NCBI GenBank assembly: GCA_031266185.1 | Contig: JAISBM010000026.1 | Span: 1-60,915, forward strand | Reading direction: 5' to 3' | Length of the DNA stretch: 60,915 nt | Source of the DNA: Endomicrobium sp. | Lineage (GTDB): Bacteria > Elusimicrobiota > Endomicrobiia > Endomicrobiales > Endomicrobiaceae | In this document: piece by piece, positions 5,279 to 59,756 of the stretch | How positions within the stretch are numbered: position 1 is the stretch's first letter | Layout of the letters: the number at the start of each line of letters is the position of its first letter | Translations under genes and position numbers: made by a program | Notes under the pieces: generated by a model | The model's database searches: none | The model's input: only the letters and a program-made list of their open reading frames with translations | What the model was told of the DNA's origin: nothing

Positions 5279-5329
5279 AAAAAAAAGGCCCTAGCAGTAA
5301 AACTTAAAAACTACTAAAGCCTTTTCTTA
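5279..5329 (-). terminator. rho-independent terminator of the lysine-tailed protein gene
   Basis: Read on the minus strand, a GC-centred stem (AAAAGGC / GCCTTTT with an inner TAG-AGT / ACT-CTA pairing across an A-rich loop) is followed by a T run. It lies just downstream of the stop codon of the gene at 5341-5673. The A/T symmetry means it could also work for plus-strand transcripts. Confidence 0.65.
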
Positions 5330-5340
5330 ACTTATTAATT

Positions 5341-5673
5341 TTATTTCTTTTTACTTTTCTTAGTTGCTTTCTTTGCAACTTTTTTAACTACTTTCTTTGC
5401 AACCTTTTTAATTGCTTTCTTTGCAGCTTTTTTCTTAGATTTTTTCTTTTTACCACCCCTACTCATTACTGACCTGGAAATATCACCACTTTTGTCAATA
5501 AAGTAAAGATAGCCAGATTCTTTCTTCAAGCCAACTTTTGCTACCTTTGTAGGTTTTCCGCCTTTTTTACCACCTCTTGCCATTAGAGCTCTTGAGACAT
5601 CGCCATTTTTGTCAATAAAATAAAGGTAACCCGCTTCTCTTTTTACACCAACCTTCTCTACTTTTTCAGCCAT
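5341..5673 (-). CDS. lysine-rich, histone-H1-like protein with duplicated GYLYFIDK motif
   Basis: 110 residues in two parts. Residues ~7-37 and ~46-76 are two copies of one 31-residue unit (KVGxKxExGYLYFIDKxGDxSRxxMxRGGKK). Residues ~77-110 form a tail of KKA/KKV repeats typical of bacterial H1-like proteins and of alanine/lysine DNA-binding tails. A strong Shine-Dalgarno (AGGAGG) precedes the ATG. It follows the HTH gene by 27 bp and is followed by a clear terminator, so the two form a short operon. The tail suggests nucleic-acid binding in the nucleoid or on RNA. The unit resembles small beta-hairpin/zinc-ribbon-sized modules but has no cysteines, and its function is not recognised. Confidence 0.8.
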   Translation of the reverse strand: MAEKVEKVGVKREAGYLYFIDKNGDVSRALMARGGKKGGKPTKVAKVGLKKESGYLYFIDKSGDISRSVMSRGGKKKKSKKKAAKKAIKKVAKKVVKKVAKKATKKSKKK

Positions 5674-18489: not shown

Positions 18490-18760
18490 ATAACTATTTA
18501 GTATCATCACAGGCGTATGTGTTGAGTTTTGATCAAATAATACCTGACTTGAGCGGGTTAAAAAAACAGCCCCTTGCACATCAACATGCACACCCTACAG
18601 ATTAACATTAGGCAAACTCAGGTCACTTTTAGATAAGACTATAGTGTTATTAGCAGCAGTAACCGTAGAAATATTACTACTTCATTACTACTTCCAGCAT
18701 TAACCCCCACTCGCGCCGCATAAACATTCAACCCTCCCACTCCATCACAGCGACATAGTA
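18490..18760 (-). pseudogene. autotransporter passenger remnant (left fragment)
   Basis: Read on the minus strand, short reading stretches in shifting frames give NVYAARVGVNAGSSN, STVTAANNTIVLSKSDLSLP and GVHVDVQGAVF, interrupted by stops. The Asn/Thr/Val-rich beta-helix style ('VYAA ... NNTIVL') matches the fragment at 53110-53340, which contains near-identical DNA for ACCGTAGAAA..ATTACT. It ends at the boundary of the MITE copy at 18769. It is a dead fragment of a repetitive surface protein. Confidence 0.6.
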
Positions 18761-18768
18761 GTTTGGTT

Positions 18769-18963
18769 GATCTAGTTTAGAACCTTACCTACGTTACTAG
18801 AGCAATCGCAACAAACATTTAAACAAATTAGCAAACTAGCAAAATGAAAAGACAAGAAAGACATAAATGAATTTTGCTTCAGACAATGCTAATTTGTAAT
18901 ATTAAAGTTTATTGCTCATAGAGCGCTCTTTGATGTAACTCCGATAAGGTTCTAAACTAGACC
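18769..18963 (+). repeat. MITE-like element, copy A (internally deleted)
   Basis: A 195-bp copy of the dispersed element whose ends are GATCTAGTTTAGAACCTTA and CCGATAAGGTTCTAAACTAG. The two ends are imperfect inverted repeats of each other. Compared with the 212-bp copy at 51423 it lacks about 16 bp near the left end (TGGCTCACTCAG region), but the middle, including AAAATGAAAAGACAAGAAAG, is nearly identical. Flanked on both sides by autotransporter remnants. Confidence 0.85.
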
Positions 18964-19210
18964 CAACCACCGTCCCATAGTCATTAAGCAAATACACATA
19001 AACCCCGTACAACCTACTTCAACACTACTACTAATGTTAATAGTATTATTGTCCATATTGATAGGACAGTCCACAGATATAGGATTACTTGCATTATCCT
19101 TTGGATCAAGACTTAAATTTAAATACGCTCCATAAACATAATTAACACTAAACGTGCTGTAAGTTACTAGATTAATTGTTTGACCTGCTATACTTACACT
19201 TGTCTCCTTA
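18964..19210 (-). pseudogene. autotransporter passenger remnant (right fragment)
   Basis: On the minus strand it reads VNYVYGAYLNLSLDPKDNAS, NPISVDCPINMDNNTINISSS and, after a frameshift, YGVYVYLLNDYGTVVG. This 'VYGAY ... NNTINIS' rhythm is typical of bacterial beta-helix passengers. About 190 bp match the fragment at 54525-54720 closely (TACTACTAATGTTAATAGTA and GATAGGACA blocks). No intact frame. It abuts the right end of MITE copy A. Confidence 0.65.
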
Positions 19211-31842: not shown

Positions 31843-32054
31843 GATCTAGTTTAGAATCTTATCGGAGTTACCTTAAAGAGCAGCTTATGAGCAATAAACA
31901 TTTAATATTTCAAATTAGCACTGGTTGAAGCAAAATACATTTAAGCCTTTGTTGTCTTACCATTTTGCAAGTTTGCTAATTTGTTTAAATGTTTGTCGCG
32001 ATTGCTCTCTGAGTGAGCCACTCTAGTAACGTAGATAAGATTCTAAACTAGGTC
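31843..32054 (-). repeat. MITE-like element, copy B (full length, inverted)
   Basis: 212 bp, the reverse complement of the arrangement in copies A and C. The ends are GATCTAGTTTAGAATCTTAT and, at the other side, ATAAGATTCTAAACTAGGTC; the inverted termini extend inward with bulges (GAGCAATAAACATT against GATTGCTC). It lies in the gap between the TPR operon start and yraN (31582-32107), where no gene is seen. The remainder of that gap shows nothing recognisable. Confidence 0.85.
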
Positions 32055-51253: not shown

Positions 51254-51422
51254 AACACTACTTAACCCTTTACTAAATATAGACTGTGTTAAATGAACCT
51301 GCAAGCTATACCTTTTAATAACACTAGTCTTTAAAAGTTAAAACATTTTAGAAACGTTAACAAATGTAAAGCAAATACTATCATATAAAGACATAAACTC
51401 GCAAATAACTGTATGTTTGATT

Positions 51423-51634
51423 GGTCTAGTTTAGTATCTTATCTACGTTACTAGAGTGGCTCACTCAGAGAGCAATCGCAACAAACATTCAATCAAATTA
51501 GCAAACTTGCAAAATGAAAAGACAAGAAAGACATAAATGAATTTTGCTTCAGACAAAGCTAATTTGTAATATTAAACGTTTATTGCTCATAAGCCACTCT
51601 TAGAGGTAACTCCGATAAGAGTCTAACCTAGACC
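51423..51634 (+). repeat. MITE-like element, copy C (full length, reference copy)
   Basis: 212 bp. The left end GGTCTAGTTTAGTATCTTAT and the right end ATAAGAGTCTAACCTAGACC are imperfect inverted repeats. Inside lie the paired arms GAGCAAT...AAACATT and AATATTAAACGTTTATTGCTC, and nested AAATTAGC/GCTAATTT, so single-stranded DNA or RNA would fold into one long hairpin. No coding capacity; no obvious target-site duplication. The rest of 51254-51836 shows nothing more than a promoter-like inverted repeat near 51787-51810. Confidence 0.88.
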
Positions 51635-51836
51635 AGGTTATACTATAACACTTTTCGTTGTCTTTTGGTTTAACCATTTGCTTCTCAAAACTGATAGCTT
51701 TATGAATATATTTTCCCTTCTCATCTCATTAAAACCTGTCACGGTAGGTGTTAATATTAAAAACACTAGATTTTGTTTTTTCATTTTGTTATAGTACAGT
51801 TATACAAAATGTTTAATTCAAATAATGGAGGGCAAG

Positions 51837-53093
51837 ATGTCATACATATATAGAGCTCTTAATATGGAATTAATAAAAAGTGTGAAAACTCGTCCTTTGG
51901 TATATTTAAACGGTGCTCGCCAATGTGGAAAATCAACACTTGTCCGTAATGCTTTGCTAGAAAACAACATAAACTATATTAGTTTTGATTCGCCAATCCT
52001 TTTAGCGGCAGCAAAACGGAATCCTGCAAACTTTATTGTTGAGCTTCCGCAAAACAAAATTAATGTTATTGATGAAGTTCAACTTGCCACAGAAATTTTC
52101 CCTTATCTTAAAATTGATGTGGATGAAAAACGCATCAAAGGGAAAAATAAATCTTTATATGTTTTAACTGGTTCTGCAAATATTTTTGCTTTACCAAAGT
52201 TAGCTAATGCTTTGGTTGGTCGTATGACAATTTTGACATTATACCCATTTTCTGTATCAGAGTTCTGTAGAAAAGAGGTCAATTTTATAGATAAATTTTG
52301 GAATATAAAATTAACAGTAGAGAAATACAAAAACACAAATTTGTTGGAAAAAATAAGTAATGCTACTTTCCCAGAAATTGCTTTAGATGAAAATATTGAT
52401 AGGGAAAAGTGGTTTGATGGTTATTTAACTACGATTTTACAAAGAGATGCAGCTTCTCTTGCGAGCATTCGCAGACCAGAAAAAATTTTACAGTTATTGA
52501 TCTCTTTTTCTGAACGTGTGGGTAGTTTGATAAACGATGAAAACATAAAAAAAGAAACAGGCTCTAATAGTATTACTTATGAACGATACAAAGCATTTTG
52601 TAATTCTGTTTTTATGACATTTGAAGTTCAGCCTTGGTCAAAACCAAATAAGTTAGACAAAAGATTTTTGCGCAGCAAAAAAATATATTTTACAGACACA
52701 AATTTTCTGTGTTATATAATGCGTCGAGAGTTAAAAGATTTATATACTAACCCAAGCGCTATGGGGCACATTTTTGAAAACTTTATAGCATCAGAAATAA
52801 TTAAAGCAGCTAGCTCATCACCAAATCAATATTTTGTGTCCCACTTTAATCCTGTTCGTGGACAAGGCAAAGAAGTTGATTTTATAATAGAAAATTCACA
52901 TGGAGAGGCTATTGCTATAGAAATAAAACTAAATGCAACTTTAGACTTAAAAGATTTTGCAAATATGAAAATTTGTAAAGACACTCTCAGAGACAAATTT
53001 AAAAAAGGTATTGTTGTTTACACTGGAAATGAAATATTACCTTTTGGCGATAATTTATGGGCTATTCCAGTAAATTATTTGTGGGAGAGATAA
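51837..53093 (+). CDS. DUF4143-type AAA ATPase (intact)
   Basis: 418 residues from the ATG at 51837 (GGAGG six bases before it). Walker A YLNGARQCGKSTLVR, Walker B INVIDEVQLA and LTGSANIFALPKLANALVGR mark the AAA part (about 10-200). The C-terminal DUF4143 part has GHIFENFIASEI and the PD-(D/E)XK-like EVDFIIENSHGEAIAIEIK. The function is unknown; the nuclease-like tail suggests defence or DNA processing. An imperfect inverted repeat (TTTTGTTATA ... TTATACAAAA) just upstream may be its operator. It is an intact paralog of the pseudogene at 42613 and of the gene at 58518. Confidence 0.88.
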   Translation: MSYIYRALNMELIKSVKTRPLVYLNGARQCGKSTLVRNALLENNINYISFDSPILLAAAKRNPANFIVELPQNKINVIDEVQLATEIFPYLKIDVDEKRIKGKNKSLYVLTGSANIFALPKLANALVGRMTILTLYPFSVSEFCRKEVNFIDKFWNIKLTVEKYKNTNLLEKISNATFPEIALDENIDREKWFDGYLTTILQRDAASLASIRRPEKILQLLISFSERVGSLINDENIKKETGSNSITYERYKAFCNSVFMTFEVQPWSKPNKLDKRFLRSKKIYFTDTNFLCYIMRRELKDLYTNPSAMGHIFENFIASEIIKAASSSPNQYFVSHFNPVRGQGKEVDFIIENSHGEAIAIEIKLNATLDLKDFANMKICKDTLRDKFKKGIVVYTGNEILPFGDNLWAIPVNYLWER

Positions 53094-53109: not shown

Positions 53110-53340
53110 TATTCCTGATTGCTACAACGCCGTTTGGCACACTGATATTTTCGCCATACAAATATAAGTATTAGGGATATTGAGATCGCTTTGACAACAC
53201 AACGGCATTATTTGTAGCAGTAACCGTAGAAACATTATTACTCCCAGGAGTATCTCCATTCCCAGACTGCAGCCCATACGCCGCAAAAACGTTCACGCTT
53301 TGCACCACATATCTACACATCGCTGCTGACATTTATGGTA
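53110..53340 (-). pseudogene. autotransporter passenger remnant
   Basis: On the minus strand it reads VNVFAAYGLQSGNGDTPGSN, NVSTVTATNNAVVLSKRS with stops and shifts, and resembles the fragment at 18490-18760 (CCGTAGAAA..ATTACT and ACCATATCTACACATCGC blocks). No start and no intact frame. It lies directly after the intact ATPase gene. Confidence 0.55.
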
Positions 53341-53546
53341 TTTCCTGACGTTGGTCTGCTTCTTGCCTCAATCTCAACAAAATTATACCGGCATGACTTC
53401 ATCTATATCTTTCCTTGCCTCTTACATAGTCCTTCTTTACTATTAATTCTTAAACACTTGCTACATTGCATTTTAACCTCATCTATCTATAATTGAATAC
53501 TCTCTGTTTAATATCAGTCAATACAGGTAGAAAAATGGTATAGTTA

Positions 53547-53834
53547 ATGAGTAAATATGTACTTGAAGGGTAGTATATAAAGAGCTTACCAATAGGTACA
53601 CCGAGATTTTTGATAGAGCAAGTAGAAAAAATGGAAGAGGTAGAATATTTAGTGCAAGCGCAAAGAGTTAGCCAAGAAGAGCTTAAAGGGCTAGGAGATG
53701 CAATAGAGATGAGAGAATTTGTGTAAATACTAAGGTCATATGAAAAGTACATAATGCCAATGGCCAATGTGGTGGTAGATAGCGCATTAACAATGGAAAT
53801 GAAGAAAGTAAGCTCAATATCGCAAGCAGAGTAA
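53547..53834 (+). pseudogene. broken ORF of unknown family
   Basis: One continuous frame with two internal stops reads MSKYVLEG, stop, YIKSLPIGTPRFLIEQVEKM, EEVEYLVQAQRVSQEELKGL, GDAIEMREFV, stop, ILRSYEKYIMPMANVVVDSA, then ends. The residue composition is protein-like, and a purine-rich plus strand continues into the autotransporter remnant 36 bp downstream. No family is recognised. Confidence 0.35.
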
Positions 53835-53869
53835 AGTAAAAGAGTAGTTTTAAAAATAGGAGGAAGAGA

Positions 53870-54164
53870 ATGAAGAAAGTGAAGGTAGTGATAAGTATGA
53901 TGATGATTTTACTTGCTGTGAAGGCATATGCGGGGGAGGGAAGTAGTAATAGATAGAAAAGTAACACAGGAGAATATATATGGAGGGAGAGTAGAGGGTA
54001 ACGGGACAGCGACATCGAATGTAGTGAGAATAAATAATGCAAGTGTAAAGAATGTGATTGGAGGGGTTGTAAATGTAGGAGATACTAGTACAGTAGTAAG
54101 TAGTAATATAGTAAGGATTATAGGAGAAAGAGAAGGAGTAGAAGGGATGGTGAAAGTAGGGTAG
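53870..54164 (+). pseudogene. collapsed autotransporter gene: signal peptide, short passenger, C-terminal strand
   Basis: A good Shine-Dalgarno (AGGAGG) precedes an ATG at 53870 and a signal peptide (MKKVKVVISMMMILLAVKAYA). One frameshift near a GGGGGAGGGA tract is followed by ENIYGGRVEGNGTATSNVVR, NASVKNVIGGVVNVGDTSTV and then IGEREGVEGMVKVG, stop. The end corresponds to the last barrel strands of the gene fragment at 60740-60915 (GEREGVEGMVKVGYSI). The gene has apparently lost almost all of its passenger and barrel by deletion. Confidence 0.65.
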
Positions 54165-54284
54165 TATATAGTTGGGAAGGAGTAAGGTATAGGAATATAG
54201 GAAGGAAGAAGAAAGAAAAGAAGAAGGCAAAGATAATGAGGAAGTTAGCAATAGGATAGCAAACAAATTATGCCGTGCTAGGCG

Positions 54285-54350
54285 ATTTGGAAAATCGTTG
54301 TTTAAAGGGAACAAAGAAATATTTGAAGGGCTGTATGTATGTGACAAATG
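54285..54350 (+). pseudogene. AAA-ATPase-like (PF09820-type) scrap
   Basis: RARRFGKSLFKGNKEIFEGL is a collapsed version of the 'RRFGKSL..LkeyFeGnkelFegLyI' motif of AAA-ATPase_like proteins. Much of the gene is missing. A larger piece of the same family occurs at 60399-60748, in both places next to an autotransporter C-terminal fragment. Confidence 0.5.
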
Positions 54351-54450
54351 GGACTAGAGTAAGAAGAATGCAGTGATAGGCTTAGAGTTTGCTGAGCGTG
54401 CATAGTCCTGAAGAATTGAAAAGAATATATATTTAGAGAGACCCTTTTTG

Positions 54451-54518
54451 CAATATTAAATATTTGTTGCTCATAAGCCGCTCTTTGAGGTAACTCCGTT
54501 AAGATTCTAAACTAGACC
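54451..54518 (+). repeat. MITE-like element, copy D (right end only)
   Basis: 68 bp matching the right end of copy C (AATATTAAATATTTGTTGCTCATAAG region to TTCTAAACTAGACC). The left part is missing. It stands directly in front of an autotransporter remnant, as the right end of copy A does. Confidence 0.8.
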
Positions 54519-54524
54519 AATCCA

Positions 54525-55030
54525 GCATAGTTACCAACAACCGTCCCTACGTCTTAAGCCAACCCTCATACGCCCAGAACAACCTACTTACTGCAACACT
54601 ACTACTAATGTTAATAGTATTATTTATTGCCCATATTGATAGGACACGTCACAGTTATAGGATTACTTGCATCATCCTTTGGATCACGCTCCATAAACAA
54701 CATTAACAGTATTCCCTGACATAGATACAGGCGAACTTAAACTTTTATTTTCAGGCACAACATCTCTGCATCGCTTAACACAGGGTACGTGCTAAAGATT
54801 TCTACATTATTGACACCAGAATTAATGTTAACAGAATTATTGGTAGCATTGATATTAGGGGTAATAGCTACACCAGTAGTACCACTAGCCACATAGCTAC
54901 TTACAAACAGATAATTGAAACCACCAGAGATCTATCACTTTGCACACTACTAGACACTTTGATAATATTGCCATTAGAATCATCATTACCACCATAACTG
55001 CTTAGTATCAGACTCGTTCATAATCTTCAC
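54525..55030 (-). pseudogene. autotransporter passenger remnant (long fragment)
   Basis: On the minus strand it reads SYGGNDDSNGNIIKVSSSVQ, YLFVSSYVASGTTGVAITP, NINATNNSVNINSGVNNVEI and, after a shift, a part equivalent to 18964-19210 (GTVVG end). Repeated 'NNSVNI' and 'VYGAY' rhythms identify the beta-helix passenger. Multiple stops and frameshifts make it non-functional. It shares ~190 bp with the fragment behind MITE copy A. Confidence 0.65.
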
Positions 55031-58346: not shown

Positions 58347-58428
58347 AAGTATTTAACCATCAAGCATCTAATAGTTTACTCGTATTATACATAAATATAA
58401 GGAGATATTTAAAAGAAGTGCACATACT

Positions 58429-58459
58429 GGTCTAGTTTAGAACCTTATCTACATTACTA
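58429..58459 (+). repeat. MITE-like element, copy E (left end only)
   Basis: About 31 bp (GGTCTAGTTTAGAACCTTAT and then CTACATTACTA) matching the left terminus of copies A and C; the remainder is absent. It lies between mnmE and the DUF4143 gene. Confidence 0.75.
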
Positions 58460-58517
58460 ATTGTTTATGTGTCAAATGACTCTAAATGTCCAATATTCTT
58501 TGAACTTTTACAAAAGA

Positions 58518-59756
58518 CTAAACCCCTAGAGATGATAATGATATTACATTTACACCATCTGGGCGTTTGTAACTTATTCCTGTACCTACAATTATATTTA
58601 AAGATGTGGGGCGCTTTGATATATTTCTAGTTATTTCTATTAAGTTTTTTGCAGCTGTATCAACAAGCGATGGCCCTAATTTAACTTCAAATGCTGCCCA
58701 CTCCCCAGCGTCATTTTGTACTATAGCATCTATTTCTTTGTCATTGGAATCTTTGTAATGATACACTAAGGCATCATTTGCCTGTGCATAAACACGTAAA
58801 TCATGAATTACTAAAGACTCAAACAAAAAACCCAAATATTCAGGATTTTTTAACAAACTTTCTTCATTTAATCCCAAAATGCTAATAGCCAAAGACACAT
58901 CTGTAAAATGTCTTTTTGGGGCTTTTCTTAACTGTGCAGATGATCTAATATGAGTATTCCATGCGAGTTGATTTTCAATTATCATTAACCGTTCTAAGGT
59001 ATCTAGATAATCACTTACAGTTAGTCTTGTAATACTTTCTGAATATTGTTTTATATCTTTAGTTAAAGTTTCGATATTTGCGGCAGTAGAAATATTTCTT
59101 GCTAAAGATTTCAATAATGCTTTTATTTTGTTTGGGTCTCGAGAAATTTTTGACACTTTTGACAAATCTACTTCCGCTAATAAATCAATATAAGCTTTAT
59201 TAATTCTTTTTGCAGATTCAACAGACTTATTGATATTAGTGGGCCATCCTCCTATAATTAGTCTATTTATTATATTGTTGATAGAAATCTTTTGGATTTC
59301 AGGTTTTATTTTATCTGTATTTAATAAAGCGCCTAGAGATATTGTCCCGGATGAAAAACCCAATTCAAACCAAGACATCGTTCTCATAACTGAAATTGTA
59401 AAACGCCCTGCTCCAGAATGTGTTTTTGTTGTTTCAATAGGATTTGCAGAGCCTGTTAAAATAAACTGCCCTGGTTTTTGTTTTTTGTCTACATTATGGC
59501 GAATATAATTCCATAAAAGAGGTTGCTCTTGCCATTCGTCAATCAAGCGCGGAGTTTGCCCATCAAGCAAAACTTCGGGATTAAAATCCATAAATGTTTT
59601 TACTTTTGGATCTATATCAACCTGAAGTCTACTTTTTGCAAATTGCATTACTGTTAAAGTTTTTCCACAAGACTTAGGACCTTTTATCAAAAGTGCCCCG
59701 CTACTTTTTAGATTTTTTTGTATCTCTAGTTCTATGATACGTTGCTTATATATCAT
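58518..59756 (-). CDS. DUF4143-type AAA ATPase
   Basis: 412 residues. Walker A LIKGPKSCGKTLTVMQ, Walker B RLIDEWQEQP, sensor LTGSANPIETTKTHSGAGRF and the DUF4143 part GFLFESLVIHDLRVYAQAND with KEIDAIVQNDAGEWAAFEVK as the PD-(D/E)XK-like end. Full length and apparently intact. A paralog of the genes at 51837 and 42613, but more divergent in the middle. GAGG precedes the ATG at 59756. The 59757-60034 gap shows only AT-rich sequence. Confidence 0.88.
   Translation of the reverse strand: MIYKQRIIELEIQKNLKSSGALLIKGPKSCGKTLTVMQFAKSRLQVDIDPKVKTFMDFNPEVLLDGQTPRLIDEWQEQPLLWNYIRHNVDKKQKPGQFILTGSANPIETTKTHSGAGRFTISVMRTMSWFELGFSSGTISLGALLNTDKIKPEIQKISINNIINRLIIGGWPTNINKSVESAKRINKAYIDLLAEVDLSKVSKISRDPNKIKALLKSLARNISTAANIETLTKDIKQYSESITRLTVSDYLDTLERLMIIENQLAWNTHIRSSAQLRKAPKRHFTDVSLAISILGLNEESLLKNPEYLGFLFESLVIHDLRVYAQANDALVYHYKDSNDKEIDAIVQNDAGEWAAFEVKLGPSLVDTAAKNLIEITRNISKRPTSLNIIVGTGISYKRPDGVNVISLSSLGV

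Follow-up and report, generated by a model that had tools for sequence, protein, structure and literature searches.

A probable MITE-like foldback repeat family of one clade of Candidatus Endomicrobiellum, endosymbionts of termite flagellates

The palindromic elements of Rickettsia and Wolbachia are repeats of roughly 100–200 bp carried by intracellular bacteria, and the rickettsial ones are known to insert inside genes. Bacterial MITEs, such as QMITE1 and QMITE2 of Coxiella and Chunjie of Geobacter, are non-coding, shorter than 500 bp, bounded by terminal inverted repeats and dispersed, with many truncated copies (PMC10969869, PMC5896051). The Correia repeat enclosed elements (CREE), a MITE of Neisseria, measure ~100–200 bp, have inverted ends and occur in high copy number between genes, and their inversion in place is credited by a review to Elbeyioglu et al. 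2017 (PMC10969869). REP and REPIN sequences, associated with RAYT transposases, are also many-copy intergenic palindromes (REPs: PMC3733652).

The repeat described here, named element A, is a ~200-bp foldback family found in a window of 60,915 nt, the whole stretch of DNA analyzed. The window is contig C10 of MAG G000 (828 kb in 28 contigs), which is 52% complete and for which copy counts are lower bounds. Among named taxa, those nearest to it are Candidatus Endomicrobiellum species (Elusimicrobiota), endosymbionts of termite flagellates. A is similar in size to the rickettsial palindromic elements and differs from them in its placement, given that none of 114 A arrays overlaps an ORF of at least 100 aa. 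It differs from the bacterial MITEs in that neither a parent insertion sequence nor a firm target duplication was found, and in that its pairing spans most of the element, whereas bacterial MITE ends usually cover 4–30 bp. In relation to the Correia elements, A belongs to another host phylum, has given no demonstrated TA target duplication, can contain a second, nested element and also stands in tandem; we presume that the two also differ in sequence, arm length and ends. No MITE-like family was found described for Elusimicrobiota in the literature searched, and A would add one to this phylum. The features of the window are given below, B being a second foldback element and T2 a tail sequence.

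51423..51634, plus strand: element A, 212-bp variant, flanked by a thiE-like gene on the minus strand and an AAA-ATPase-like gene on the plus strand
51423..51446, plus strand: left outer arm GGTCTAGTTTAGTATCTTATCTAC, pairing with 51611-51634 in the DNA fold
51611..51634, plus strand: right outer arm, the imperfectly complementary partner of the left one in the DNA fold
~51454..51470, plus strand: the extra 16–17 bases that make the 212-bp variant, a gap in most aligned copies
18769..18963, plus strand: element A, 195 bp, from the profile search; the orthologous site of E. roisinitermitis holds an A+B composite, oppositely oriented
31843..32054, minus strand: element A, 212-bp variant; site filled in E. 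roisinitermitis (simple A) and E. incisitermitis (A+B)
54445..54521, plus strand: right third of A, the remainder lost, from the profile search
54432..54444, minus strand: terminal 13 nt of B, joined to the A fragment at 54445; exact 13-nt match to a B end
58427..58459, plus strand: left-arm remnant of A, ~31 nt, from the profile search and site comparison
58457..58516, plus strand: tail T2 adjoining the A remnant; T2 profile match, E 5.8e-11

A profile built from full copies matched the window at 18764-18965 (+), 51418-51637 (+) and 32058-31841 (–), and partially at 54432-54521 (+) and 58427-58459 (+), with E-values of these five matches from 1.5e-65 to 1.5e-4, while 20 shuffled windows gave no match at E ≤ 1e-3. 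The three full copies and two end fragments perceived in an earlier sequence-only reading were all recovered where it had placed them, in both orientations (18769 and 51423 forward, 31843 reverse). Its account of long imperfect terminal inverted repeats, devoid of coding capacity and lying only in gaps, was also borne out: the outer arms of ~21–23 bp are nearly perfectly complementary in the consensus and pair in the fold, as do further inner segments, and A is always intergenic. The size of ~212 bp that it proposed applies to a longer variant, which carries 16–17 extra bases near the left arm in the alignment, and not to the family, whose usual length is ~195–198 bp. Of its two end fragments, the one at 54432-54521 corresponds to the right third of a composite, with A interrupted by the B end, and at 58427-58459 a remnant of an A arm runs into tail T2. 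The terminal three bases vary among copies (GGT, GAT, GCT, ACT, GGG). The MAG as a whole holds ~25 full or near-full A copies besides many fragments. Single-strand folding produces a near-continuous hairpin, in agreement with the hairpin formation first supposed: the DNA fold of the 51423-51634 copy has an energy of –31.9 kcal/mol (z –5.8 against shuffles), and the RNA fold of the 18769 copy one of –58.7 (z –8.3).

Among 35 genomes of the same genus searched, A was abundant only in E. roisinitermitis (JAITSL; G017) and E. incisitermitis (JAISOG; G030); of the other 33, two gave single matches of 23–28 bases (E ~1e-4 to 1e-3), and there was no match in genomes beyond the genus. An exact pattern of a conserved A 22-mer, searched in 84,980 genomes, matched only these two species and E. 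cryptotermitis, so that A, multicopy in the window genome, recurs in three close relatives, and none was found in viral contigs (exact pattern), plasmids or phages. The first reading had recognized no known family, and neither Rfam nor the plasmids and phages gave an A match. In a DnaE tree, which did not include E. cryptotermitis, the window genome, E. roisinitermitis and E. incisitermitis formed a clade with support of 100/100, with G020 and then G004 placed outside, both without A; the presence of A in this supported clade and its absence from the two outgroups indicate that it appeared, or at least was amplified, on one branch. Moreover, A sites sampled in four species formed 60 clusters, and no fewer than 26 of these were common to two or more species, a lower bound because site sampling was incomplete. 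For example, the 31843 site holds A in all three members of the clade and lacks it in G020 and G004. With so many sites common to species, the spread of A was mainly ancestral, and the family is largely old and common to several species, a point beyond the reach of the sequence-only reading.

Comparisons of filled and empty sites give a view of the insertion itself. One site (L079) is filled in E. roisinitermitis and cleanly empty in E. incisitermitis; a second one (L050) is filled in E. roisinitermitis and empty in E. incisitermitis, G020 and G004. These pairs, the only two clean cases, demonstrate an insertion of DNA, and what was inserted extends into tails beyond A. A third candidate empty site of E. 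roisinitermitis (L058) was discarded because an arm remnant remains there, revealing a deletion, and at L093 and L084 rearrangement was too extensive for ends to be placed. Aligning the flanks for target duplications, as first suggested, yielded short direct repeats at the two empty sites, ACAAAC and AATTACC, which differ in length, and neither is established as a duplication. CTAG occurs at both A ends; it is palindromic and its outer neighbors are also conserved, which makes it indistinguishable from a target duplication. The idea of a non-autonomous mobile element is the best one but only partly supported: it has the two clean empty sites behind it, and neither a clear target duplication nor a transposase with A ends was found. 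Two tails accompany the element: T2 (AAACTAACTATTTCTGTGTCAAG... and then a small stem-loop) at ~20 A loci, and T1 (AATATCTGCTGCATTTTG) at several. All clear T2 matches adjoined A or a remnant of it, so that the possibility of A sitting inside an older independent T1-T2 repeat was not supported. The ends quoted for A are thus not necessarily the true ones, and the mobile unit may exceed A by including T1/T2 tails.

We consider that A is probably a new non-autonomous foldback (MITE-like) family of one Endomicrobiellum clade, which spread between genes mainly in the common ancestor of the clade and later underwent recombination through its arms. Like bacterial MITEs, it is shorter than 500 bp, non-coding, bounded by terminal inverted repeats, dispersed in multiple copies and found at filled/empty sites (two). 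The spread would most likely have depended on a transposase now lost or unrecognized, a step that we infer, as we do the recombination mechanism.

Since their spread, copies of A have been altered in place. At 16 orthologous sites compared, A had the same orientation in 11 and the opposite one in five, the inverted sites including window 18769 versus E. roisinitermitis. Single A units at some sites correspond to two tandem units with a ~26-bp spacer at their orthologs (L005/L067, L002/L087). Similarly, simple A at some sites corresponds to A+B at others, with B at a single fixed internal position; the 51423 copy is simple in the window and its ortholog in E. roisinitermitis contains B, and the 31-nt remnant at 58427-58459 has full composites at the orthologous sites of two sister species. 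The long inverted arms have probably acted in the main as homologous segments at which copies recombined with one another or internally, which would account for in-place inversion, short-spacer tandem stacking, truncation and the occurrence of B at one position in many loci. Homologous recombination is plausible in these hosts, since one genome survey, in its account of replication, repair and competence functions, reports no notable difference between endosymbiotic and free-living Endomicrobia (PMC11257099). In-place inversion of A is not new in kind, because that of Correia elements is already on record according to the review that cites it (PMC10969869).

The nested element, B, is ~165 bp long, has ends GGGTCTCTCTAAAAACC and occurs in several Endomicrobiellum genomes: G020 gave at least 20 matches, and relics remain in G004, G009, G016 and G023. 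By this distribution, it is older and more widespread than A. B loci include L188, L195, L200 and L205 in G020 and L187 in the window genome, in addition to the composites at many A loci. Three stand-alone copies (L187, L192, L195) are bordered by AAAT at either end, the pattern expected of a 4-bp target duplication. The junction between A and B is nearly always the same, which suggests a single insertion of B into A, after which the composite would have spread by transposition or by exchange via the A arms.

A different account of the dispersal is that A never transposed itself and was spread only within larger recombining repeats, by segmental duplication or as part of a mosaic (BIME-like). 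Its frequent association with T1/T2 tails or decayed adhesin-gene repeats and its tandem arrays would accord with such an origin, which is nevertheless unlikely, given that many A sites have unrelated flanks, that clean empty sites exist and that copies lie at dispersed loci in both orientations.

It could also be proposed that A is kept for its fold, as a structured RNA or a hairpin with a regulatory role (terminator, mRNA stabilizer or riboregulator), which its strong hairpin potential and exclusively intergenic position would allow. A hairpin preserved as RNA is expected to present covarying paired positions and more G-U than A-C mismatches on the RNA strand. Two double compensating changes were indeed observed between L009 and L099, and arm-arm matching exceeded that of permuted haplotypes (1114 versus 1093, sd 6.7), a slight excess and a weak linkage, inflated by the mutual orthology of some sequences. 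Against it, no linkage is seen in the most variable arm pair, whose allele combinations (19/11/9/6) fit independence; G-T and A-C mismatches are nearly equal (49 and 46), with no strand preference; and A changes faster than its surroundings, with identities between orthologs of 95.0, 91.3 and 85.0% versus 96.6, 95.5 and 95.7% for the flanks in three pairs. Moreover, the orientation of A relative to neighboring genes flips between species, promoter and terminator signals are not in excess at 51300-51830, and Rfam covariance models gave no match at the gathering score or at E ≤ 1. At L006/L105, outer-arm alleles were exchanged between the two sides of A. The unlinked arms, the balanced mismatches and the faster divergence favor exchange between copies and between arms over selection on a transcript, and the arm pattern seems to fit such exchange better. 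An RNA function was therefore not favored, and we hold it to be distinctly improbable.

The in-place states could alternatively be due to a dedicated recombinase that recognizes the arms and flips or replaces the interior, making A an actively inverting, cassette-swapping DNA hairpin that alternates among simple, A+B and tandem forms. We find this highly doubtful; if true, A would serve an intracellular symbiont as a switch or recombination site operating genome-wide.

With regard to the machinery of transposition in the preferred MITE-like reading, five transposase families (DDE_Tnp_1, rve, Transposase_mut, DDE_5 and Y1) were searched in the window genome (52% complete), E. roisinitermitis and E. 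incisitermitis, and no intact gene was found. DDE_Tnp_1, rve and DDE_5 were absent from all three; E. incisitermitis carries only a decayed IS256-type fragment and E. roisinitermitis only a decayed Y1 fragment with stops, neither locus having A ends. Transposase loci of the outgroups were likewise without A or B ends. A transposase gene sharing the A ends, whose search the sequence-only reading had suggested, thus did not turn up among these families and genomes, and for transposases of the IS4/IS5, rve, IS256 and IS701 types nothing intact was found in the element-bearing genomes. One stretch of the MAG (G000:C23:15991-17062; L017:569-1640) has two outward-facing A ends enclosing 1.07 kb with short ORFs, and it was discarded as an autonomous A because, to the eye, these ORFs resemble a decayed Fic-type toxin-antitoxin pair and not a transposase. 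The least probable proposal, that a RAYT/Y1 (IS200/IS605-type) transposase mobilizes A as a REPIN-like repeat, draws on the paired palindromes and intergenic location of A, the absence of an obvious target duplication and the Y1 fragment of E. roisinitermitis, and was set aside because Y1 matches occur in only 6 of 40 congeneric genomes, with none in the 99% complete E. incisitermitis or in the window genome, and because the A unit of ~196 bp is much longer than palindromes of 20–40 bp.

The four close symbiont species, with many orthologous A copies, allow a site-by-site history of inversion, stacking, nested insertion and decay to be followed. A repeats may also explain why some contigs of these MAGs break off within them, and the copies can be used as markers for strain comparison.

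Some other observations were made in the vicinity of A. Diverged repeats at window positions 18629-19108 and 53190-54711 present adhesin/autotransporter-like motifs by eye and look like decayed genes, and several A copies of the clade lie within adhesin-like decayed repeats. The AAA-type ATPase-like genes at 51825-53093 and 58518-59756 both adjoin A copies. A possible third short repeat, with GGACGATTGATCAAACA...GGGCTTAATGC, was noticed at L043, L017 and L267, once inside an A copy. In addition, an ORF region at 5329-5665 of the window contains tandem 24-nt repeats and a close pair of 102-nt repeats.
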